This document shows positions 7,349 to 25,324 of a stretch of 25,324 nucleotides of DNA, piece by piece. The stretch is from a virus: the IMG/VR virus record IMGVR_UViG_3300042565_002595, positions 1-25,324 of that record. One strand, 5' to 3'. The first letter of the stretch is position 1, and the number at the start of each line of letters is the position of its first letter. The notes beneath the pieces were generated by a model. The model was not told the origin of the DNA, did not search any database, and saw nothing but the letters and a program-made list of their open reading frames with translations. The position numbers and the translations under genes are program-made.

Positions 7349-8827
7349 ATGCCAGAAGACAAGACGCTGAGTCAGTTACTGGTTGACATTGATGTAACCG
7401 GAAACGAGCTGATACCGTTTTTAGACGTGGGTGCAACACCCCCTAATAAGCTAGTAACTATCAATACGATTACTGCTAAGACTATTGCCGCTCACAAGGC
7501 AGAAGAAAATCCCCACCCGGAGTATTTGACCAATACAGAAGTCATTTCTTTATATGTTCCAGTCCGTAACAATAGTGGCGCGACAATTGGCAAAGGTGTG
7601 CCTGTTTATCCGACAGGTTCTAGCGGCACGACAATTACTATCGCCCCAGCAGATGCTTCTGCTGCAGCTACAGCATCCCGCACGTTAGGACTGACTTATC
7701 AATCAATTCCCAATAATACTAACGGCTTGGTAATTGCCGTTGGGCCGCTTGAGGGGCTTAATACATCAACATTAACCGAAGGCGCAATTATTTATCTTAG
7801 TGAGACAACTGGTGCGATGACAACCACCAGGCCACCGGCACCGGCGCATAGTGTCGTGTTGGGTTATTGTATTAAACAAGCATCGGGTACGGCTGGCATT
7901 GTTGATGTAAAGGTTGATAATGGGCTGGAGTTGGAGGAGCTGCATGATGTACTAATTGCTGCAAAAACGCCAGGGCAGGCATTCATTGTGGCTGCCAATG
8001 GCCTGTGGGAAAATCGCTTTTTGTTGGCGGCTGATCTTAGCGATGCCGGGGCCACGGGCCTAGATGTGATCAAGGCTGCAAATCAAGCGGCAGCTCGAAC
8101 GGCGCTTGGTCTAGGGTCAGCCTCAACTGCAGCGACAACGGAGTTCGCCTCGGCAGCGCAGGGCGTAAGCGGAGGGAATGCGCATGACCATAATGGCGGT
8201 GACGGGGCACAGATTGCCTACGGCAGCCTGTCAGGCCTGCCCCCCCTCGGCACAGCTGCAGCTGCCAACACGACCGATTTCGCCCCGGCGGCGCAGGGCG
8301 TAAGCGGAGGGAATGCGCATGACCATAATGGCGGTGACGGGGCACAGATCGCCTACGGCAGCCTGTCAGGCCTGCCAACCCTCCCCGCTGCTGCCAATGT
8401 TGCCCCGCAACCCCTCGGCGCTGTTGCGACGATCGGCACCAGCCCGCAGTACGCTCTGGCAGATCACGGTCACCAGCGGGACACCATTCCGTTGGTGGTC
8501 AATCTGTCTGGCAGCCAGAGTGATCCAATCGCAGCAAACACGATCGAGCGGTTCAGGTTCCAGTGGCCTGCGCAGATTTTGGAATCGGAGCTCATTGCGG
8601 AAACTGTAGCGTCAGGAGCAGCGTTTGAAGTAAACGCCAGATTGAACACCAACTCAATCTATAGCGTCCGCCCACAGATTGCGATAGGGAACACCATAGG
8701 CACCGGCGGCACGCTAGCGATCACAACTGCAGCGGCCGGCGATATTCTGCGATTCGATATATCTCAGGCTGCGGGCGGGTGCCGAAATGCTCAGTTATAC
8801 CTGACCGTGCGGAGGACCGACACATGA
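7349..8827 (+). CDS. Fibre-like structural protein with internal repeats
   Basis: This 492-residue protein has a good GGAGG ribosome binding site upstream. Residues 1-55 look like a capsid/tail-binding N-terminal region (TLSQLLVDIDVTGNELIPFL). Residues about 65-190 form a beta-rich domain found in many phage fibre-like proteins (VRNNSGATIGKGVPVYPTG). Residues about 235-345 are Ala/Gly-rich and contain two nearly identical repeats with AQGVSGGNAHDHNGGDGAQI. The C-terminal 100 residues form a beta-rich domain that may bind a receptor or trimerise. Because it sits between head and tail genes it may be a head fibre rather than a tail fibre. The DNA becomes GC-rich from about 8040, matching the repeat region. 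Confidence 0.7.
   Translation: MPEDKTLSQLLVDIDVTGNELIPFLDVGATPPNKLVTINTITAKTIAAHKAEENPHPEYLTNTEVISLYVPVRNNSGATIGKGVPVYPTGSSGTTITIAPADASAAATASRTLGLTYQSIPNNTNGLVIAVGPLEGLNTSTLTEGAIIYLSETTGAMTTTRPPAPAHSVVLGYCIKQASGTAGIVDVKVDNGLELEELHDVLIAAKTPGQAFIVAANGLWENRFLLAADLSDAGATGLDVIKAANQAAARTALGLGSASTAATTEFASAAQGVSGGNAHDHNGGDGAQIAYGSLSGLPPLGTAAAANTTDFAPAAQGVSGGNAHDHNGGDGAQIAYGSLSGLPTLPAAANVAPQPLGAVATIGTSPQYALADHGHQRDTIPLVVNLSGSQSDPIAANTIERFRFQWPAQILESELIAETVASGAAFEVNARLNTNSIYSVRPQIAIGNTIGTGGTLAITTAAAGDILRFDISQAAGGCRNAQLYLTVRRTDT
8156..8376 (+). repeat. 135-bp-period tandem repeat in the fibre gene
   Basis: Copies at 8156-8241 and 8291-8376 are 86 bp long and differ at one base (agattgcc versus agatcgcc). 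The period of 135 bp is 45 codons, so the repeat stays in frame and encodes the HDHNGG segment twice. The near-identity suggests a recent duplication or ongoing gene conversion. Confidence 0.92.
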
Positions 8828-18653: not shown

Positions 18654-19360
18654 TGACTACGTTTCCGGCGATCAATCCAGACGAAGGCAAAGTTTATAGT
18701 CCTGGTACTGTACTCACTGAATCATACGTGGGACCCGGAGGAGTGCCATATTTGTTTCAATTGGGTACGGTACAGGTTGGGGCACCTGTAGAGCTACCAT
18801 TCACTAATAGACCATTTACGGAAATTGACGCAATTTGGAATCATTACACAACACAAGAACTCAATTCATTTGATCTACCGTTAGCGGTATGGTGCGCAAA
18901 TTCTGCCACCGCCACCATTGCCGGTGCGGGATTGCTATGGCGGTACCAGGAACCGCCATCGGTAGAACGCATATCGCCAGGCTGGGGCAGTATCACGGTG
19001 CGGATCATTTCTGCTGGTACTGCAATTGGCCCAACGGTTGCCGCAACGCCTGCCGCCGGATTATTTGCGGGCATCGTGGCCGGCGGAGTGCCATCGGCTC
19101 CGCCCCCTCCTATTCCGGTTGCAGATCCGCCTATCGTACCGGCTACTACAACAATCACTGGACCCCCAGATTTGATATTTGCTCCTTTTTCTGTGTTGAT
19201 AGATTCTGGGGTAGAATTGATTCATAGCAGCGTCGGGTTTCCGTCTACTGGAGTGGTTGGGATTTCTGGAAACATTGATTTAATCCATAGCAGCGTGGGG
19301 TTTCCATCTGTCGGAACAATTGGCATGGGTGGAACAGTAGAGTTATCAATTGATCCATAA
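18653..19360 (+). CDS. Tail tip adaptor protein, short paralogue
   Basis: This 235-residue protein has an N-terminal domain (residues 1-120) that aligns by eye with the start of the next gene: both have a helix ending in W-H/Y, then LLWRY or ILWRY followed by a proline and ERIS/TEIT. After it comes a Pro-rich linker (APPPPIPVADPP) and two copies of LIHSSVGFPS in a 21-residue repeat, ending TVELSIDP. The protein stops just where its neighbour continues into a large C-terminal domain. It may be a truncated or minimal receptor-binding adaptor. Its TAA overlaps the next ATG by one base. Confidence 0.65.
   Translation: MTTFPAINPDEGKVYSPGTVLTESYVGPGGVPYLFQLGTVQVGAPVELPFTNRPFTEIDAIWNHYTTQELNSFDLPLAVWCANSATATIAGAGLLWRYQEPPSVERISPGWGSITVRIISAGTAIGPTVAATPAAGLFAGIVAGGVPSAPPPPIPVADPPIVPATTTITGPPDLIFAPFSVLIDSGVELIHSSVGFPSTGVVGISGNIDLIHSSVGFPSVGTIGMGGTVELSIDP
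19217..19309 (+). repeat. 63-bp-period repeat encoding LIHSSVGFPS
   Basis: Segments at 19217-19246 and 19280-19309 encode the same ten residues with a period of 63 bp (21 codons). The DNA copies differ at several third positions, so the peptide rather than the DNA seems to be conserved. Confidence 0.85.
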
Positions 19361-21228
19361 TGGCAAATTTTCCCAGCGGAATCCGTTGCAGCACCATTAC
19401 CCCTACAGCCGGTGCATACCCCGGCAATCGGGTTGCGTCAATTAGTGGTAATGAGGCGTCGTTCCAGGGCGGTAATAGAATGACGGGAGCTAAGTTATCA
19501 ATTGAGTTTGAACAAAAAACACCGGCGGAAATTGCTAGTATTCGTACTCACTGGGACGGGGAAGGTTTAACCGATTCGTGGCTGCTGTCAGAAGAGTTGA
19601 TGGATGGATTGGAAGAATACGCAGCTGAATATGGATCAATTTTATGGAGATATGCTGTGGCTCCACAGATTACAGAGATCACCTCCGAAGCCGGTGGCGT
19701 GCATGATGTAAGTATTGAGCTAGCACAAGCGCCCATGCCTGCATTCATTGATACGCTGTTATTAAATGCACAACCGGCAACGGTTGGTATTGGTGGAATG
19801 GTAAGATTATTGGGACCGGATACTTTGCCGGATTTATGGATAAGCAGGTTGACAACGGCAACACGAACGCCGCACTCAAATGGTGGCGGGATTGGTTCTA
19901 TTATTTATGGAACAAACGGGGAAAATTTTCAGGCATTTTGGTTTGAAGAAGTTGGGGGATCAGGCGTACGTGTTGCAGTGGTAAAACGTGACATAAGAGG
20001 TGCTGTGCTGTGGATTGTTTACACGTCAGCAGAATTCGGCAGCACTACTACATCTTTTTTAAGTTATGCTCCCCAGGTAGTAGCATCATCTGATGGTGGC
20101 TGCGTGGTTTTTGCGATTGAATCGGGAACATTGCCATTTTCAAGTAGTGTCTTGACAATGCGTGGATGGCGGCTTGGAAGTAATGGAACTGAAATATGGA
20201 GGAAAGATTACACGGGGAATACGTTAGGAGCTTATCGAGTAGCAATCAACGGTTCTGAAGTAGTTGTATATAGCGCAAGTTTCCATCCTGATAGCGGCAG
20301 AATATCACCAGCGTTGTATCGGATAAATTTGGCAAATGGCAATTATATCGGTGGATCCGTTTATCGCATAGACAACGCCACCGGCGGTATCTCTCCGGGC
20401 CGCCGAGATAATATGTTTGTTTTGTCTTCTGGTGCAATCGCCTTAAAAATTGCTCAAACCATATTTATGGAAGTATCAAACACTGGATCTAGTGTAAATA
20501 AATGCGCTGGTTTTACAGTGACCACGGGCAGTTGCCTTGACGGCCCAGCGGCCCAAATGGGCACAGGGTATGTATGCAGAAATGACGCCACAACACTGGT
20601 GCATCTTGATTCTGAATTCAATATTACAGCTAGATATAGGCATGAAAATACGATGCTTGCAAGTGGTGAGTTTCTTGGCTTTTTTGGGCTTGGAATTGCC
20701 GCATTTCCGTCTGGTGTTGGATATGCAGTGTCGTATAATTTTGCGTCTGGTGACTTTTTAGGGCTGGGCGTTAAGATTGCGAAGTTTGCAAATAATGGGG
20801 CTAATTTGGTTGGCTATGGAGAAATTGCTCATGGTTCTGGTATTGGATCCTTTCAGTCTGCAGACGTAGACAAGAATTCTATTTACGGCATGGATATTAG
20901 TTTAGGTCGTGGCCTGTTGCATATTCCTGGACAAGGGGCATCATCCTCATGTAGGATTAATGCCATCGGTTTTGCTTTGGATCTACCCCCCAGCACAGCA
21001 GCCAACACCACACCGGCAGGAACGTTGGATACTGGCACATGCAGTAATACTATGAGCATAAGAGGATGGAATTCAGTTACTTATACATCCGGCACGCCAA
21101 ACGACATCACAAAATCAACGCTCCCGGTTAATGTCGCATCGTTTAGCCTGACAGTTACAACTGGAAGCCTTAGCATGATTGATGCCAGCGGCGTCTTAAC
21201 GTGGAATCGTAGTATCCTGTATGTCTAA
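19360..21228 (+). CDS. Receptor-binding tail protein with probable beta-propeller
   Basis: This 622-residue protein has an N-terminal adaptor domain (about 1-130) related to that of the preceding gene, then a short linker (TVGIGGMVRLLG) much like the TIGMGGTVEL of that protein. Residues 160-520 have repeated blade-like phrases (SSDGGCVVFA, GWRLGSNGTEIWRKDY, YRINLANGNYIGG, GVGYAVSYNF) that suggest a beta-propeller of the PQQ/Kelch sort. The C-terminal 80 residues are a separate beta domain. The last position in the structural operon and the modular layout fit a receptor-binding protein. The stop codon lies inside the terminator stem that follows. Confidence 0.65.
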   Translation: MANFPSGIRCSTITPTAGAYPGNRVASISGNEASFQGGNRMTGAKLSIEFEQKTPAEIASIRTHWDGEGLTDSWLLSEELMDGLEEYAAEYGSILWRYAVAPQITEITSEAGGVHDVSIELAQAPMPAFIDTLLLNAQPATVGIGGMVRLLGPDTLPDLWISRLTTATRTPHSNGGGIGSIIYGTNGENFQAFWFEEVGGSGVRVAVVKRDIRGAVLWIVYTSAEFGSTTTSFLSYAPQVVASSDGGCVVFAIESGTLPFSSSVLTMRGWRLGSNGTEIWRKDYTGNTLGAYRVAINGSEVVVYSASFHPDSGRISPALYRINLANGNYIGGSVYRIDNATGGISPGRRDNMFVLSSGAIALKIAQTIFMEVSNTGSSVNKCAGFTVTTGSCLDGPAAQMGTGYVCRNDATTLVHLDSEFNITARYRHENTMLASGEFLGFFGLGIAAFPSGVGYAVSYNFASGDFLGLGVKIAKFANNGANLVGYGEIAHGSGIGSFQSADVDKNSIYGMDISLGRGLLHIPGQGASSSCRINAIGFALDLPPSTAANTTPAGTLDTGTCSNTMSIRGWNSVTYTSGTPNDITKSTLPVNVASFSLTVTTGSLSMIDASGVLTWNRSILYV

Positions 21229-21254
21229 GAAGGGCTCCTTCGGGAACCCTTCTT
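21227..21254. terminator. Strong hairpin terminator closing the structural operon
   Basis: AAGAAGGG at 21227-21234 pairs with CCCTTCTT at 21247-21254. Inside, TCC and GGA enclose a TTCG tetraloop (C-UUCG-G), with one C/A mismatch in between. The arms give T-rich ends on both strands, so it can serve the + strand operon and the minus-strand small genes that converge on it. Confidence 0.88.
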
Positions 21255-21277
21255 CATGAAACCGGCCGCGGGCTGGC

Positions 21278-21505
21278 TCACAGTTCGCCACGTTTGCGCT
21301 TTTTTCTGGCCTTGCGGACGCGCTCCGCCTTATATTTTTTTCCATCTTCATCTAGCCGCTCAAAGCAGCGCGAGCAAAAGGGCCCTCGAGCGCCGGTGTG
21401 GGTGATGCCACAGCCGGGGCACACTGGATGTGGCGCAGGCGGCAAGCGGCCGGCCTGCCGTTCCCTGTAGCGGCGAGCGCGATCGGCGGCGGTGGGGTCC
21501 GTCAT
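21278..21505 (-). CDS. Small zinc-ribbon protein
   Basis: This 75-residue protein has two Cys pairs, CPGC at about 29-32 and CSRC at about 44-47, forming a probable zinc ribbon, flanked by an Arg-rich helix (RARRYRERQAGR) and a strongly basic C-terminus (KAERVRKARKKRKRGEL). This suggests nucleic-acid binding. Its ATG overlaps the TGA of the upstream HTH gene (ATGA at 21505-21502). A similar basic two-CxxC protein is encoded at 23515-23784, so the phage has two of them. It could be an HNH-like remnant, but no HNH residues are visible. Confidence 0.72.
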   Translation of the reverse strand: MTDPTAADRARRYRERQAGRLPPAPHPVCPGCGITHTGARGPFCSRCFERLDEDGKKYKAERVRKARKKRKRGEL

Positions 21506-21690
21506 GCCGCCAGCGCTTTCCGCACCTGGTACCGCGTGCAGTGGAGGTGATCGGCGATTTGCTGCTGAGTCCAGCCCATGGCTTTAAGGCGGTGGATCCG
21601 CTCGGGGCGGGTCATCGTCATCCAGTCAAGAAGTAGTACCGGGAGCACCAGCAGGGCTAGAGCCCAGGCGAAAACACATGTGAGTGACAT
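21502..21690 (-). CDS. Tiny membrane-anchored HTH protein
   Basis: Starting at the ATG at 21690 this gives 62 residues; an upstream in-frame TTG at 21726 would give 74. The N-terminus is a hydrophobic segment (CVFAWALALLVLPVLLLDW), long enough to cross the membrane once. The C-terminal 38 residues (RPERIHRLKAMGWTQQQIAD then HLHCTRYQVRKALAA) form a clear homeodomain-like helix-turn-helix. A third start at MTMTRPER would leave only the HTH. A 6-bp inverted repeat (21699-21712) lies just before the ATG. The function is unknown; a small regulator is plausible. It is coupled to the zinc-ribbon gene by an ATGA. Confidence 0.6.
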   Translation of the reverse strand: MSLTCVFAWALALLVLPVLLLDWMTMTRPERIHRLKAMGWTQQQIADHLHCTRYQVRKALAA

Positions 21691-21698
21691 TGATGGAA

Positions 21699-21712
21699 CC
21701 GGCAAGTGCCGG
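21699..21712. repeat. Inverted repeat CCGGCA-2-TGCCGG
   Basis: A perfect 6-bp inverted repeat with a 2-bp spacer ends eight bases before the likely ATG of the HTH gene. It could be an operator for that protein or an RNA hairpin covering its start. Confidence 0.5.
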
Positions 21713-21757
21713 ACGATGGTGGACAACGGCGACGCGATCGGTCAGCCGCTGGGGGGA

Positions 21758-21867
21758 TGGTGTGCGGAGATTGGCGACTGCTTGCCAGGCTCTCCGCGGG
21801 CCAGGGGTCAAAGCCCCGGAGGAGGCATCTGCCTCCCGATAAACAGACAGTAGCGTATCCGTGACGG
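21758..21867. repeat. Structured 110-bp direct repeat, copy 1
   Basis: This copy matches 22117-22225 almost base for base; the differences seen are one base in a hairpin loop and a short change before ACAGACAG. It contains three potential hairpins: GCGGAGA 21764-21770 with TCTCCGC 21791-21797 (inner TGGC/GCCA); GGGG 21804-21807 with CCCC 21814-21817; and GGAGGCA 21821-21827 with TGCCTCC 21830-21836. Read on the minus strand it lies upstream of the HTH gene. Confidence 0.9.
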
Positions 21868-21908
21868 TAGAACGACCCTGACTGGTGTCGCTTAACCGAT
21901 TGTCACAG

Positions 21909-22100
21909 TTACATCTTGTCGGCGTCGGCGCGGGCGATGTCGGCGAGGGCGAGGGCCTCGGCGTCGTTGAGGGCGGCGAGGGCGTCGGCGCGGGCGAGGG
22001 CGCGGGCCTCGGCGGCGGCGGCGGCGGCGCGGGCGCGGGCGGCGGCGGCGCGGGCGCGGGCGTCGGTGTCGGCGAGGGCGCGGGCAAGAGGATTTTGCAT
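21909..22100 (-). CDS. Small Ala/Arg/Asp-rich repeat protein
   Basis: This 63-residue protein begins MQNPLARALADTDARARAAA and is made almost only of Ala, Arg, Asp, Glu and Leu, probably forming one long helix. The frame is chosen because the same peptide pattern (AEARALARADALAALNDAEA then LALADI) recurs in the gene at 24212-24985 in a different setting, while the overlapping Pro-rich frame does not. There is no purine-rich ribosome binding site; the leader on the coding strand is pyrimidine-rich. It lies between the two 110-bp direct repeats. The function is unknown. Confidence 0.55.
   Translation of the reverse strand: MQNPLARALADTDARARAAAARARAAAAAAEARALARADALAALNDAEALALADIARADADKM
21936..22035. 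repeat. Shared GC-rich coding cassette, copy A
   Basis: This stretch is nearly the same as 24515-24605, which lacks one 9-bp unit and has a few substitutions. In both places the minus strand encodes the [20 protein letters not shown] peptide, so the cassette is shared by two different small genes. Confidence 0.85.
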
Positions 22101-22116
22101 TTCAGTGGGGTGGGAG

Positions 22117-22225
22117 TGGTGTGCGGAGATTGGCGACTGCTTGCCAGGCTCTCCGCGGGCCAGGGGTCAAAGCCCCGGAGGAGGCATGTGCCTCCCGATG
22201 ACAGACAGTAGCGTATCCGTGACGG
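22117..22225. repeat. Structured 110-bp direct repeat, copy 2
   Basis: Second copy, 359 bases after the first. All three hairpin stems are preserved; the perfect GGAGGCA/TGCCTCC stem is at 22180-22195 with its loop changed from TC to TG. It ends 81 bases before the first lysis gene on the + strand and, on the minus strand, lies directly upstream of the Ala/Arg-rich gene. The interval 22226-22306 that follows holds a 12-bp palindrome (22225-22236) and no gene. Confidence 0.9.
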
Positions 22226-22306
22226 CCTGGCCAGGCTGAGTCGTGCCAGTTCACAAGCCTTAACACATTCTCCCACGCTAAACTGGTTCATAATGGATCG
22301 GTCAGC

Positions 22307-22576
22307 ATGTTCGGGCGCAAGCCTCCTCTCCCCCCATCGCCTACCCCCGGATTTTCGGCGATGCAGGTTGTAGAAATGGCGGGCGGTACCGTACTGGCCG
22401 CTTTGGTTATTTACATTGCACATATAGTAACATTTCTACCAGCTAGGTTATCTAGCGTGGAACAAGGGCAGCAGCAAATATTGAGCAATCAAAACAGAAC
22501 TGACAATGTGATGGATGCAATACGGGGTGAATTGCGCATGCTTGACAGGCGCACTACGAAACTCGAAAGTCAGTAA
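22307..22576 (+). CDS. Small membrane protein of the lysis cassette (XhlA-like)
   Basis: This 89-residue protein has a Pro-rich N-terminus (PPLPPSPTPG), one membrane helix at about 24-44 (EMAGGTVLAALVIYIAHIVT), then a soluble coiled-coil tail (SSVEQGQQQILSNQNRTDNV and RMLDRRTTKLESQ). This layout is like XhlA-type lysis accessory proteins, although in those the helix is often C-terminal; a spanin-like role is also possible. It shares one base with the next gene (TAATG), a putative holin, and both precede the endolysin. The ribosome binding site is weak. Confidence 0.65.
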   Translation: MFGRKPPLPPSPTPGFSAMQVVEMAGGTVLAALVIYIAHIVTFLPARLSSVEQGQQQILSNQNRTDNVMDAIRGELRMLDRRTTKLESQ

Positions 22577-22773
22577 TGCCAGAACGTCGCCTGTTGATTG
22601 CTTCACTTCTTGCCTTTCTTGCTATTGGTTCTATAGTGAGAATTGTTGATCTTGCATACTGTCGTGTGGTCAAGTTATCAGACTGCAATGAATCATCCAC
22701 TGCTATCAGTAGGGCTGTGGACTTTGCCGCTGGTACGATCCTAGGTATTCTAGTAAAGTCTTCCGACCCGTAG
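22576..22773 (+). CDS. Putative holin
   Basis: This 65-residue protein has two hydrophobic segments, at about 6-24 (LLIASLLAFLAIGSIVRIV) and 46-61 (AVDFAAGTILGILVKS), joined by a polar loop with two Cys residues (YCRVVKLSDCNE). Size, two membrane helices and position just before the endolysin fit a class II holin, which would open the membrane to let the endolysin reach the cell wall. No family is recognised from sequence. Seven bases separate it from the endolysin start. Confidence 0.65.
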   Translation: MPERRLLIASLLAFLAIGSIVRIVDLAYCRVVKLSDCNESSTAISRAVDFAAGTILGILVKSSDP

Positions 22774-22779
22774 CGATCA

Positions 22780-23457
22780 ATGAATAGCTATCTTCGCCTT
22801 ACCCAAACCGCGCAATACAACCGAAATGGTTTGCAACTACTTAAGCTCGCGTATGTCAAACTTGTTGATACTCCACAAACAACACGGGAGAGTGTTTCTA
22901 TCGTTGATGTAATCAAGCATTACAAAAATCTTGACCATCAGGAAAAAGCGTTGCCGATGCTTGAAAAAGATCTAAAGGCTAACTCTTACAATGTTGTAAT
23001 GTCCAGTCAACGGCCGTGGTATCGGCAATGGGCACAAAAAGGTAACACCATTGCGGAGTATATATTCGTTGTCAGCGGGGCCCCTAATCGTCAATTTTTT
23101 AGGGTAGGATCCGACAGCCGCTCCGGCAGTCTGGAGCCATTACCAGAAGGCGAATGGGAAATTGATGATATCGCATGGGCAAGCGGTAAGCCCGATGACT
23201 GGGGGGCAAGCTGGGGGCCAGGCTTGGGGCCGGTCAGTGTGCCGCTCCAGTGGCGCGGTCCCGGTCGGACTAGCCGATCCTCTATTGAAATTCATATCGA
23301 CTGGAATGGTCGCACCTCGCCGGGGACAGCCGGGTGCATCGGTGTTGAGAATCAGGCTGATATGCGCAAGCTGATTCGATGGTTGCGGGATACGGACCCC
23401 CGGCGGCTGTATGTGGATTGGGGGCTTGGGAGCTGCCCCCGTCCATCGTTGAGGTAA
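22780..23457 (+). CDS. Endolysin with L,D-transpeptidase (YkuD-like) fold
   Basis: This 225-residue protein carries the signature EIHIDWN-(5)-SPGTAGCIGV. H172 and C186 are in the spacing of YkuD-type active sites (H ... S/T-x-G-C), where the Cys is the nucleophile. The N-terminal part (LRLTQTAQYNRNGLQLLKLA) and the GEWEIDDIAWASG section resemble a group of small cell-wall proteins found, as far as I recall, in cyanobacteria and their phages. Following the holin-like gene it is most likely the lysis enzyme, acting as a peptidoglycan peptidase. No signal peptide or wall-binding repeat is seen, which is consistent with holin-dependent release. Confidence 0.72.
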   Translation: MNSYLRLTQTAQYNRNGLQLLKLAYVKLVDTPQTTRESVSIVDVIKHYKNLDHQEKALPMLEKDLKANSYNVVMSSQRPWYRQWAQKGNTIAEYIFVVSGAPNRQFFRVGSDSRSGSLEPLPEGEWEIDDIAWASGKPDDWGASWGPGLGPVSVPLQWRGPGRTSRSSIEIHIDWNGRTSPGTAGCIGVENQADMRKLIRWLRDTDPRRLYVDWGLGSCPRPSLR

Positions 23458-23467
23458 AATGATGGGG

Positions 23468-23499
23468 TCAACCGGCGGACAGGCAAATTCGCCGATTGA
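23468..23499. repeat. Hairpin after the endolysin gene
   Basis: TCAACCGGCG at 23468-23477 pairs with CGCCGATTGA at 23490-23499 with one mismatch and a 12-nt loop. It lies just before the terminator stem and may add to it. Confidence 0.5.
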
Positions 23500-23503
23500 C
23501 AGT

Positions 23504-23531
23504 CCCCCCTTTGGCTACGGCCTTAGGGGGG
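23504..23531. terminator. UACG-loop terminator between lysis and accessory genes
   Basis: CCCCCC at 23504-23509 pairs with GGGGGG at 23526-23531. Inside, GGC and GCC enclose a TACG tetraloop, with two T/T mismatches between the stems. ATTTATCTTTTT follows on the + strand. The minus-strand zinc-ribbon gene ends within this hairpin (stop at 23515), so the site may end transcription from both sides. Confidence 0.82.
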
Positions 23532-23784
23532 ATTTATCTTTTTGTTGCGTAGACATTTTGGGAGTGGCGGAGCGGCTGGTTTGTTGTTGTTTTTCTCGGT
23601 AGTTGCGTTGTTGCCGAGCCTTTTCAGCTTTACCTTCTGGTGTTTGCTTTACGCAAACACTACAAATATCATCGAGTTTTTTGCTTTGAATGCGCCGACC
23701 GCACGCGCAAATTTTTAGCGCGGGCAGTTCACCTAGCTTTCGCAAGCGGTGCCTTTGCACTCGTTGAGAGACAGAATCGGGCAT
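23515..23784 (-). CDS. Second small zinc-ribbon protein
   Basis: This 89-residue protein has CACG (about 27-30) and CSVC (about 41-44), the spacing of a zinc ribbon, and many Lys, Arg and Gln residues around them (QRVQRHRLRKLGE; KARQQRNYREKQQQ). It resembles the protein at 21278-21505 in size, charge and Cys arrangement, suggesting an old duplication or a shared role in binding nucleic acid. The ATG lies three bases after the stop of the small membrane protein gene. The C-terminus is low complexity (Ser/Thr/Lys/Gln). Confidence 0.72.
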   Translation of the reverse strand: MPDSVSQRVQRHRLRKLGELPALKICACGRRIQSKKLDDICSVCVKQTPEGKAEKARQQRNYREKQQQTSRSATPKMSTQQKDKSPLRP

Positions 23785-23787
23785 CGG

Positions 23788-23943
23788 CTAAAAGCGATTG
23801 CACGCATTGGCATTAGATACCCACTGTTTGCAGCTACGCTCTAGGCGTGTTTCATCATTGCCGGCCCATGTGAAGGCCAGCAAGATCAATAACAACACGG
23901 CCACAGTTGCTCGGGGGGCGAAAGGGATGTAATGGCGTTTCAT
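23788..23943 (-). CDS. 51-residue single-pass membrane protein
   Basis: This short gene reads MKRHYIPFAPRATVAVLLLI then LLAFTWAGNDETRLERSCKQ and a short tail with a second Cys. One membrane helix spans about residues 12-27 after a basic N-terminus, so the C-terminal half should face the periplasm or outside. The ATG overlaps the stop of the upstream Ala-rich gene (ATGA at 23943-23940), and the next gene starts three bases after its TAG. Two Cys residues (38 and 48) in the outer part could form a disulfide. The function is unknown; a lysis or superinfection-related role is only a guess. Confidence 0.62.
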   Translation of the reverse strand: MKRHYIPFAPRATVAVLLLILLAFTWAGNDETRLERSCKQWVSNANACNRF

Positions 23944-24179
23944 TGTGCGATGGGGTGGGGTGGGGTTGTGGTGATCGTATCGCCATGTTCATCGTCTGCC
24001 GCAGCAAGAGCACTGGCGCGGGCGTCGCCGCGGGCGCGGGCGCGGTCGGCGAGGAAGCGGTCGCGAGCGCGGGCGAGGGCGCGGTGGGCGTTGGCAATGG
24101 CGGCGGCCGCGGCGCGGGCGTCGGCGAGGTCGTGGGCGCGGTCAGCGTCGGCGCGGGCGGCGAATAAGGGGTCGGTCAT
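23940..24179 (-). CDS. Ala/Arg/Asp-rich small protein
   Basis: Starting at the ATG at 24179 this gives a 79-residue protein: MTDPLFAARADADRAHDLAD followed by Ala/Arg-rich helix and a polar tail (DDEHGDTITTTPPHPIAQ). The start is supported by a 30-bp leader repeat shared with 24731-24760, which also ends in ATGACCGAC. An upstream in-frame ATG at 24257 lies inside the preceding gene and is less likely. The leader is CT-rich and lacks a Shine-Dalgarno motif. The stop overlaps the start of the membrane protein gene, indicating one minus-strand operon. Confidence 0.6.
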   Translation of the reverse strand: MTDPLFAARADADRAHDLADARAAAAAIANAHRALARARDRFLADRARARGDARASALAAADDEHGDTITTTPPHPIAQ

Positions 24180-24200
24180 GGGTGGGGAGAGATGATGGGG
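24171..24200. repeat. 30-bp leader/start repeat, copy 1
   Basis: This matches 24731-24760 at 29 of 30 bases. On the minus strand it comprises a CT-rich leader (CTCTCCCCACCC) and the first codons ATG ACC GAC. It marks the starts of two different Ala/Arg-rich reading frames. Confidence 0.9.
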
Positions 24201-24211
24201 CTGGCGGGCGG

Positions 24212-24985
24212 TCACTCGCTGGCCTGCTGCTTCAGCCAAGTAAAAGCTGCCAGCCACCCTTGGTGCTCACCTGGTTCGCTTACGTTGTTGAACGGGTTGG
24301 CGTAGCCAACAGCCGCCACGGCACGAATCGCGGCGCGGGCGTGGTAGTCCCACGTCATGTTCGTCAGTCCTTCGTCATCTGCTGCGGCGATGCCTTGCGC
24401 CACCCTCTCCACCAGCGAGTCGGCTGCGGCCGGCGCGGCAGTGGCACTGAGCTGGTCCGTACTCAGGTGACGCACCAGGTCCCGGGCGTGCGCGTTCGCC
24501 TCGCCGTAGGTGATGATGTCGGCGAGGGTGAGGGCTCCGGCGTCGTTGAGGGCGTCGGCGCGGGCGCGGGCGCGGGCCTCGGCGGCGGCGGCGGCGGCGC
24601 GGGCGTGCTGGGTGGCTTCCAGCTTTTTCACGCGGGCGCGGAGTTCGAGAAGGCAGGCATGGGTGGCGCTCCAAAAAACGGCAGCTTCGCTGGCGACGAG
24701 GTCCCACTGCTCAGGCGTGGCGTGATGTTGGTCGGTCATGGGTGGGGAGAGGTGATGGGGAACTGATGGTGCGGCGGCGCGGACCAAGGCGTCAACGAGG
24801 TCGTGGGCGAGGGATCGGGCGCGGGCCAGAGCGTGGGCGTTGGCGTCGGCGTCGGCAAGGGCTAGGGCGTTGACGAGGGCGTCGGCGAAGTCGTGGGCCA
24901 GCTTGTGGGCGTGGGCAAGGGCGGAGTCGTCGTGGAGGTTTGGCATTTCGGTGGTCGGGGAGGTGGGGGAAGTGGGGGAGGTCAT
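24212..24985 (-). CDS. Ala/Arg/Asp-rich protein, possible two-gene fusion
   Basis: One open frame encodes 257 residues. The first part (1-75) begins with TSP tripeptides and continues as Ala/His/Asp/Leu-rich helix ([20 protein letters not shown]). The second part starts at M83 (24739), within the 30-bp leader repeat, and reads [20 protein letters not shown], then coiled coil ([12 protein letters not shown]), the shared Ala-rich cassette, and a less repetitive C-terminus ([40 protein letters not shown]) that looks like a real folded domain. It may be translated as one protein or as two nested ones; a start at M14 (24946) is also possible. It is coupled to the upstream partial gene by an ATGA. 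Confidence 0.6.
24515..24605. repeat. Shared GC-rich coding cassette, copy B
   Basis: Partner of 21936-22035, lacking one 9-bp unit. Here it lies in the middle of the 257-residue frame rather than near the end of a 63-residue one. Confidence 0.85.
24731..24760. repeat. 30-bp leader/start repeat, copy 2
   Basis: Second copy of the leader at 24171-24200, with one base changed. It lies inside the open frame 24212-24985 and places an internal ATG at 24739. Confidence 0.9.
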
Positions 24986-25324
24986 GGGCTGTCGGTGAGT
25001 GCGGTTGAGTGGGCGCGGGCGAGGGCGTCGGCGAGGGAGCGGGCTTCGGCGAGGGCTTCGGCGAGGGCGTCGGCGATGAAGAGGGCGGTGGCGAGATCGT
25101 CGGCGAGGGATCGGGCGCGGGATCGGGCGTCGGCGAGGGATCGGGCGTCGGCGAGGGCGCGGGATCGGGCGTCGACGAGGGCGTCGGCGAGGGATCGGGC
25201 GCGGGCGAAATCGTCGGCGAGGAATCGGACGCGGGATCGGGCGACGACGAGGGCGTCGGCGAGGGATCGGGCGTCGACGAGGGCGTCGGCGAGGGAGCGG
25301 GCGTCGGCAAGGGCGAGGGCGAGC
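24982..25324 (-). CDS. Partial [10 protein letters not shown]-repeat protein running off the right edge
   Basis: A minus-strand frame without an ATG in the window runs from the right edge to a TGA at 24984-24982, giving at least 113 residues. Ala is found at about every second residue, with a loose ten-residue pattern [10 protein letters not shown] seen several times and variants such as [10 protein letters not shown]. This would form a long amphipathic helix with Asp/Arg on one side and Leu/Val on the other. The frame is favoured because its stop overlaps the ATG of the next gene (ATGA) and its composition matches the other Ala/Arg/Asp proteins here. The start lies outside the window. Confidence 0.55.
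25010..25324. repeat. GC-rich short-period repeats at the right edge
   Basis: The DNA is built from 6-bp steps (GGCGTC, GGCGAG, GGGATC) with longer units around GGGATCGGGCGTCGACGAGG that recur near 25160-25195 and 25263-25295. It encodes the [10 protein letters not shown] pattern on the minus strand. The same DNA opens several other frames, which are taken to be by-products. Confidence 0.85.

Follow-up and report, generated by a model that had tools for sequence, protein, structure and literature searches.

A portable structured leader RNA at a fixed distance from the start codons of unrelated small phage genes

The DNA analysed here, IMG/VR record IMGVR_UViG_3300042565_002595 (25,324 bases, probably a fragment; hereafter the window), carries two copies of an element for which the evidence strongly supports the identity of a promoter followed by a structured 5′ leader on the minus strand. 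Its membership of a family, structure, strand, fixed spacing and portability were established by computation; the folded RNA is previously undescribed and its family has no Rfam model. The best explanation overall, to which we assign a probability of about 0.6, is that phages of freshwater cyanobacteria use this portable leader to control the start of translation of small genes that are unrelated to one another and include anti-defence genes. A regulatory RNA leader was one of the readings offered in the original prediction, and on the minus strand it was strongly supported: the element has homologues, its stems covary, and both a −10-like box and the start codon keep a fixed position relative to it.

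The window contains a siphovirus-like head and tail module (with a terminase of PHROG 15 and a fused protease/capsid protein). The almost identical direct repeats of ~110 bp that had been predicted were recovered as copies at 21753–21840 (copy 1) and 22112–22199 (copy 2), which aligned without gaps over 88 bp at 97% identity with an offset of 359 bp and shared an extension to ~21867 and ~22225, ~110 bp in total (22112–22225 was matched at E 2e-49). The longest exact repeat within 19000–24000 was 71 bp, compared with a maximum of 14 over 50 shuffles, and no third copy was present across the 25.3-kb record. All three hairpins were found, including the perfect 7-bp stem (GCGGAGA/TCTCCGC), and the differences between the copies did fall in a loop (AGAT/ACAT, in H1) and a linker (a single-nucleotide indel in the spacer that separates H1 from the −10 box). 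A small ORF indeed lies behind each copy on the minus strand, at 22100..21909 and 21726..21502; outside the leader and core promoter the copies differ. By itself, the minus-strand fold gave a modest z-score (−2.1 to −2.4, compared with −3.6 on the plus strand), and the case rests on the comparison between phages; the thermodynamically better fold of the plus strand counts against our best explanation. Elsewhere in the window, GC-rich arrays of 3-nt periodic repeats at 21913–22083 and 23991–25324, the latter running to the end of the record, encode Ala/Arg/Asp-rich ORFs, and a tail-region ORF contains a 135-bp tandem duplication (87%) at 8111–8380.

Read along the minus strand, the parts follow one another in the order TAnnnT box, H1, H2, H3, G-poor linker and ATG. 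The leader of copy 2 (22123–22199) scored 108 bits with covariance model R1, in agreement with covariation and fold, and consists of H1 (22196–22179), H2 (22178–22160) and H3 (22156–22123). A −10-like box, TACTGT, lies at 22205–22210, and the transcript is predicted to start near 22199. A G-poor linker without a Shine-Dalgarno sequence (22101–22122) leads to the ATG, 22 nt past the copy, of a 63-residue Ala-rich ORF (21909–22100) with no Pfam match. Copy 1 has the same design, with the box TACTGT at 21847–21852, a predicted transcript start near 21840 and a leader at 21764–21840 (R1 112 bits, with covariation) made up of H1 (21837–21820), H2 (21819–21801) and H3 (21797–21764). The ORF behind it encodes a small protein with a TM segment and a helix-turn-helix, whose HTH_23 match was slightly under the cut-off. 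It was listed from TTG 21726 (74 residues); judged from its homologues, its true start is probably ATG 21690, giving 62 residues (21502–21690) and a linker of 73 nt, an exception to the usual spacing. Homologues in three other contigs have the same leader with a 60-nt linker. The second ORF of the copy 1 unit (21278–21505, minus strand) encodes 75 residues, Cys-rich and zinc-ribbon-like by eye, and in another contig a gene resembling it is placed directly behind the leader.

An exact 20-mer of the window repeat was found in no contigs, so that degenerate DNA patterns were needed. Three such patterns, in part independent of one another, were used as anchors. H2 combined with portions of H1 and H3 retrieved 21 contigs as well as a contig of one Cyanobium genome, H3 alone retrieved 60 contigs and H2 alone 36. 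The patterns fix some bases, and conservation was judged solely on the parts that each pattern left free. The whole element, H3 included, was present in 31 of the 36 contigs anchored on H2; thus the conservation of H3 was not produced by the search pattern. The search for further copies, proposed earlier as a check, thereby showed that about 60 IMG/VR contigs and a single Cyanobium prophage carry the element, many of the contigs being of recent common ancestry so that copy counts do not equal independent events. A covariance model gave 77 matches in the collected loci, 63 of them above 50 bits, and 30 whole viral records held mostly a single strong copy each. Relatives carry one copy before other genes. 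Two contigs found by their tail proteins (55% identical) have one copy each, at ~84% nucleotide identity. The locus itself is covered by no sufficiently close relative, the near-identical one stopping at window position 19848, and the endolysin as search bait returned no relatives.

Comparison of the window repeats with cultured phages by BLAST gave no match. Rfam release 15 at curated gathering thresholds gave no matches in the window and nothing relevant in the contigs with the mini form described below. An HDV ribozyme was rejected as a chance-level hit (E 3.6, 18.4 bits against a threshold of 50, opposite strand), as was a tRNA-like or other known RNA, none being found. The open-licence literature, searched for the element's sequence, held no relevant paper, which is weak evidence of absence. 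Among 400 genomes of the family to which the Cyanobium genome belongs, a strong match was obtained in that prophage-bearing genome only and nine others were weak, so the element was rejected as a host feature. The Cyanobium copy is flanked by a tRNA-Met-like sequence on one side and an integrase ORF on the other (both read by eye), which places it within a prophage. Together with Synechococcus phage S-H1 (below) and sigma-factor-like ORFs in the two tail-protein relatives, this copy points to picocyanobacteria as hosts, presumably also for the window itself.

Covariation was analysed in 44 aligned copies across H1, H2 and H3. Paired cells amounted to 97.3% (90.9% when shuffled), both sides had changed at eight pairs and in 54 cells (12.6 cells when shuffled), and the covariation score was 0.190, compared with 0.082 for shuffled and 0.03–0.09 for slid controls. 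Compensatory change, another of the checks suggested at the outset, was thus strong in all three hairpins, and the leader has a covarying secondary structure. The H3 stem GCGGGGA/UCCCCGC, for example, occurs as GCCCGGA/UCCGGGC, GCCCAGA/UCUGGGC and GUGGGGA/UCCCCAC, and GCC/GGC of the P2 hairpin is swapped to GGC/GCC among copies. On the minus (leader) strand there were 50 G-U and 13 A-C combinations; 31 of the 50 are the closing pair of H1, without which this evidence for the strand is modest. One locus (L036:10047-10149) has two mismatches in the H3 stem, as if its 5′ half were like that of L061 and its 3′ half like that of L058.

H3 looks like an H-type pseudoknot (GGC/GCC plus the 7-bp stem) that carries an extra hairpin. 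Scanning placed the candidate at 22123–22161 in copy 2, where it is also suggested by the mini forms, and at 21764–21802 in copy 1. In copy 2, the candidate stem S1 would pair GGC (22161–22159) with GCC (22149–22147) around the loop CC, and S2 pairs GCGGAGA (22156–22150) with TCTCCGC (22129–22123), the P2 hairpin being inserted in loop 3. S1 is invariant in all 44 long-leader copies and so gives no covariation; in hairpins resembling the mini form, wobble pairing preserves it in about three variants, whereas about six are without it, suggesting that the pseudoknot may be a hairpin only.

The element has a fixed place between promoter and start codon. In the alignment upstream of the 44 copies, a TAnnnT box precedes H1 at a constant position and is followed by CATCGGG, with the A and the final T each kept in 39 of 44; no −35 consensus was found there. 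A dual box of the family form TGTnACnnnnTGTGAAC lies ~38 nt upstream of the −10 box (counted by eye in two relatives) and may bind an activator of phage or host origin; the same alignment placed it at 22249–22267 upstream of copy 2 (TGTGTTAAGGCTTGTGAAC) and a similar motif at 21891–21907 upstream of copy 1 (TGTGACAATCGGTTAAG). The distance from H3 to the ATG was mostly 21–30 nt, and 29 of 35 H3 modules lay 15–40 nt before an open ATG, compared with 11% of random positions. On the reverse strand the figure was 0 of 35. A plus-strand reading involving the lysis genes was rejected on this count, and the proximity of copy 2 to those genes, to which attention had been drawn, seems incidental. G made up 9% of the linker bases, compared with a background of 28%, and none of 29 linkers had an SD-like motif, for which the background was 23%. 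Since the element keeps a fixed position ahead of start codons, a role in cis is favoured over a processed small RNA.

Further genes are preceded by H3 on its own, lacking the usual H1, H2 and −10 box (L046:2335, L060:3034 and L063), and an H3-only covariance model retrieved weaker relatives of 36–38 nt that lack the P2 hairpin (ACGGCCCGCCGGGAGCCYAUCCCGGCA). The resulting mini form of 22–24 nt can be modelled as a compact H-type pseudoknot, reading as S1 GGC/GCC, loop CC, S2 GCCGGGA/UCCCGGC and a two-base loop 3. We scanned for it with S1 and the pyrimidine loop fixed and S2 free. The 704 kb of collected loci gave 29 matches, 26 of them 19–35 nt before an ATG-ORF, and a wider viral collection gave at least 120 stretches. 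Among the matches listed, 109 of 138 mini forms lay 15–40 nt before an open ATG (12% for random positions; 8 of 138 on the reverse strand), at a modal distance of 24 nt. They form islands, a record having at most five, which generally lie near one another on one strand; a scan of the window found none. In a BLAST search of cultured phages, the only sensibly placed match was in Synechococcus phage S-H1 (host WH 7803), where one mini form with an 8-nt loop 3 sits exactly between two genes; a match in Vibrio phage VP16T, inside a gene and on the other strand, was rejected as chance.

Variants of the mini form were also observed. In six contigs from other phages (one of those of this type has 39% G+C) a normal Shine-Dalgarno sequence (AGGAGG) directly follows the 22-nt form. 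Three others carry a version with loop CG and stem GCCGGGA (GGC CG GCCGGGA GCC TA TCCCGGC). A different hairpin, GCCAGGC-GCC-GTGG/A-GCTTGGC, occupies the same place before ATG-ORFs in four contigs and is perhaps a sister element.

The genes behind the elements are diverse. First genes behind the long leader fell into 37 unrelated clusters, and all genes behind the long leader or mini form into 105. Members of a single gene family, such as the AcrF31-like one, can follow H3 or the mini form depending on the phage, and the small TM-HTH type was found behind both. A Pfam search with 101 representatives gave few matches: SSB, Tad4 (E 5e-28), AcrF31 (E 6e-11, besides further members), helicase, DNA polymerase beta clamp and HTH; these names are taken from library matches, and the functions are predicted. 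PHROGs added one terminase small subunit (E 3e-7), with no capsid or tail family among the best 25, and PADLOC produced helicase- and nuclease-like cross-matches only, which were rejected. AcrF31-like genes (PF25703, above cut-off) form the largest cluster, of 14 members, and lie directly behind the long leader or mini form (L008:19458-19811, L125:2142-2477, L039:4216-4548 and L029:2339-2539, for example). A Tad4 Thoeris inhibitor gene is similarly placed in one contig. Phage SSB genes, in a cluster of five, follow the mini form (L159:2813-3463, L062:69-500 and L166:7550-7924), an arrangement reminiscent of T4 gene 32.

From its position we infer an action of the element on translation, and we likewise infer the S1 pairing and the sense of the action, enhancement or repression. 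Initiation is suggested as the step because the ATG lies within a narrow range of distances, the SD-less linker is open and internal genes are also preceded by the element. Transcription would start just 5′ of H1 on the minus strand, and the RNA would fold into H1, H2 and the conserved H3, probably a pseudoknot, ending a short fixed distance before the AUG, to which an unstructured, G-poor linker without a Shine-Dalgarno sequence connects it. H3 may then act in cis on translation initiation of whichever small gene follows, keeping the start site open and substituting for a Shine-Dalgarno sequence as the platform for docking or regulation. The promoter with H1 and H2 would serve only the gene that opens a unit, those farther inside having just H3 or the 22–24-nt mini form. 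The mini forms that directly precede a normal Shine-Dalgarno sequence in some phages mean that its replacement cannot be the sole role.

Position alone fits a translation role, mRNA stabilisation or protein binding alike, and cannot separate them. Cyanobacteria possess both RNase E and RNase J, and a 5′ H1 with a pseudoknot before each cistron could block RNase E, or 5′–3′ decay by RNase J. H1 begins within ~3–4 nt of the predicted transcript start, and mini forms occupy the gaps between cistrons in which processing would create new 5′ ends, as such a stabiliser would have it. Stabilisation alone would leave unexplained the narrow spacing from H3 to the ATG, the G-poor linker, the missing Shine-Dalgarno sequence and the conserved unpaired bases of H3, and we consider it unlikely.

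Somewhat less probable still is a shared operator at which a phage RNA-binding repressor, perhaps SSB, would nucleate on the pseudoknot and spread over the linker, shutting off a regulon. The analogy is with the T4 gene 32 operator, in which an RNA pseudoknot of ~28 nt precedes an unstructured region containing the start site [PMC535899]. The layout here is the same, a candidate pseudoknot (its S1 invariant in the 44 copies) and then an unstructured start region, and the SSB genes themselves lie behind the mini form. However, T4 gene 32 is one gene autoregulated by its product, with UUAAA repeats and a normal ribosome-binding site [PMC535899], whereas the present element fronts dozens of unrelated genes with a C/A-rich linker.

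HK022 put is a structured antitermination RNA with which an early phage transcript begins. A similar RNA, transcribed first and modifying RNA polymerase in cis, would suit an element that stands at the very start of the predicted transcript, once per genome in most phages, but is highly improbable here, as each unit in the window spans just one or two genes, internal genes are preceded by H3 and mini forms without a promoter, and a fixed ATG spacing would not be expected. A cassette boundary, recombination site or replication site in the DNA is likewise highly improbable: although the direct repeat surrounds a small gene, as the earlier proposal of a mobile cassette noted, and gene families swap behind the element, nearly all relatives have a single strong copy before unrelated genes, the two window copies differ outside leader and core promoter, and compensatory changes, G-U pairs and fixed orientation and ATG spacing stand against it.

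Among phage elements, the closest parallel in use to the proposed translation leader is SAS/ESAS of Cluster K mycobacteriophages, short conserved elements at the translation starts of many unrelated non-structural genes, SAS being a 13-bp linear sequence (GGGATAGGAGCCC) and ESAS an extended form with inverted repeats just upstream; their function was left open by the authors [PMC3203893]. Both systems have a simple and an extended form. However, the present element is a covarying RNA fold ~24 nt back from an SD-less start, its long form has its own promoter, the hosts differ and no homology is claimed; by inspection, GGGATAGGAGCCC was absent at the start codon from linkers and mini forms. The structured leader candidates wcaG and PhotoRC, found by comparison and in some cases in cyanophages [PMC2864571], are in Rfam, in which our element has no match.

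More tentatively, picocyanobacterial phages may initiate translation quite generally with a module made of a portable pseudoknot and an unstructured linker, which would replace the Shine-Dalgarno sequence and have the long, promoter-bearing form for first genes and the 22–24-nt form for internal ones. If so, early, accessory and anti-defence genes would make up a regulon defined by the element, and the presence of AcrF31-like and Tad4 genes among its targets suggests that it may serve as a search tag for new anti-defence genes. How SD-less cyanobacterial genes recruit ribosomes is an open question, for which a portable RNA gives a concrete handle. Most small cyanophage genes are without known function, and a conserved RNA before their start codons offers an entry point.
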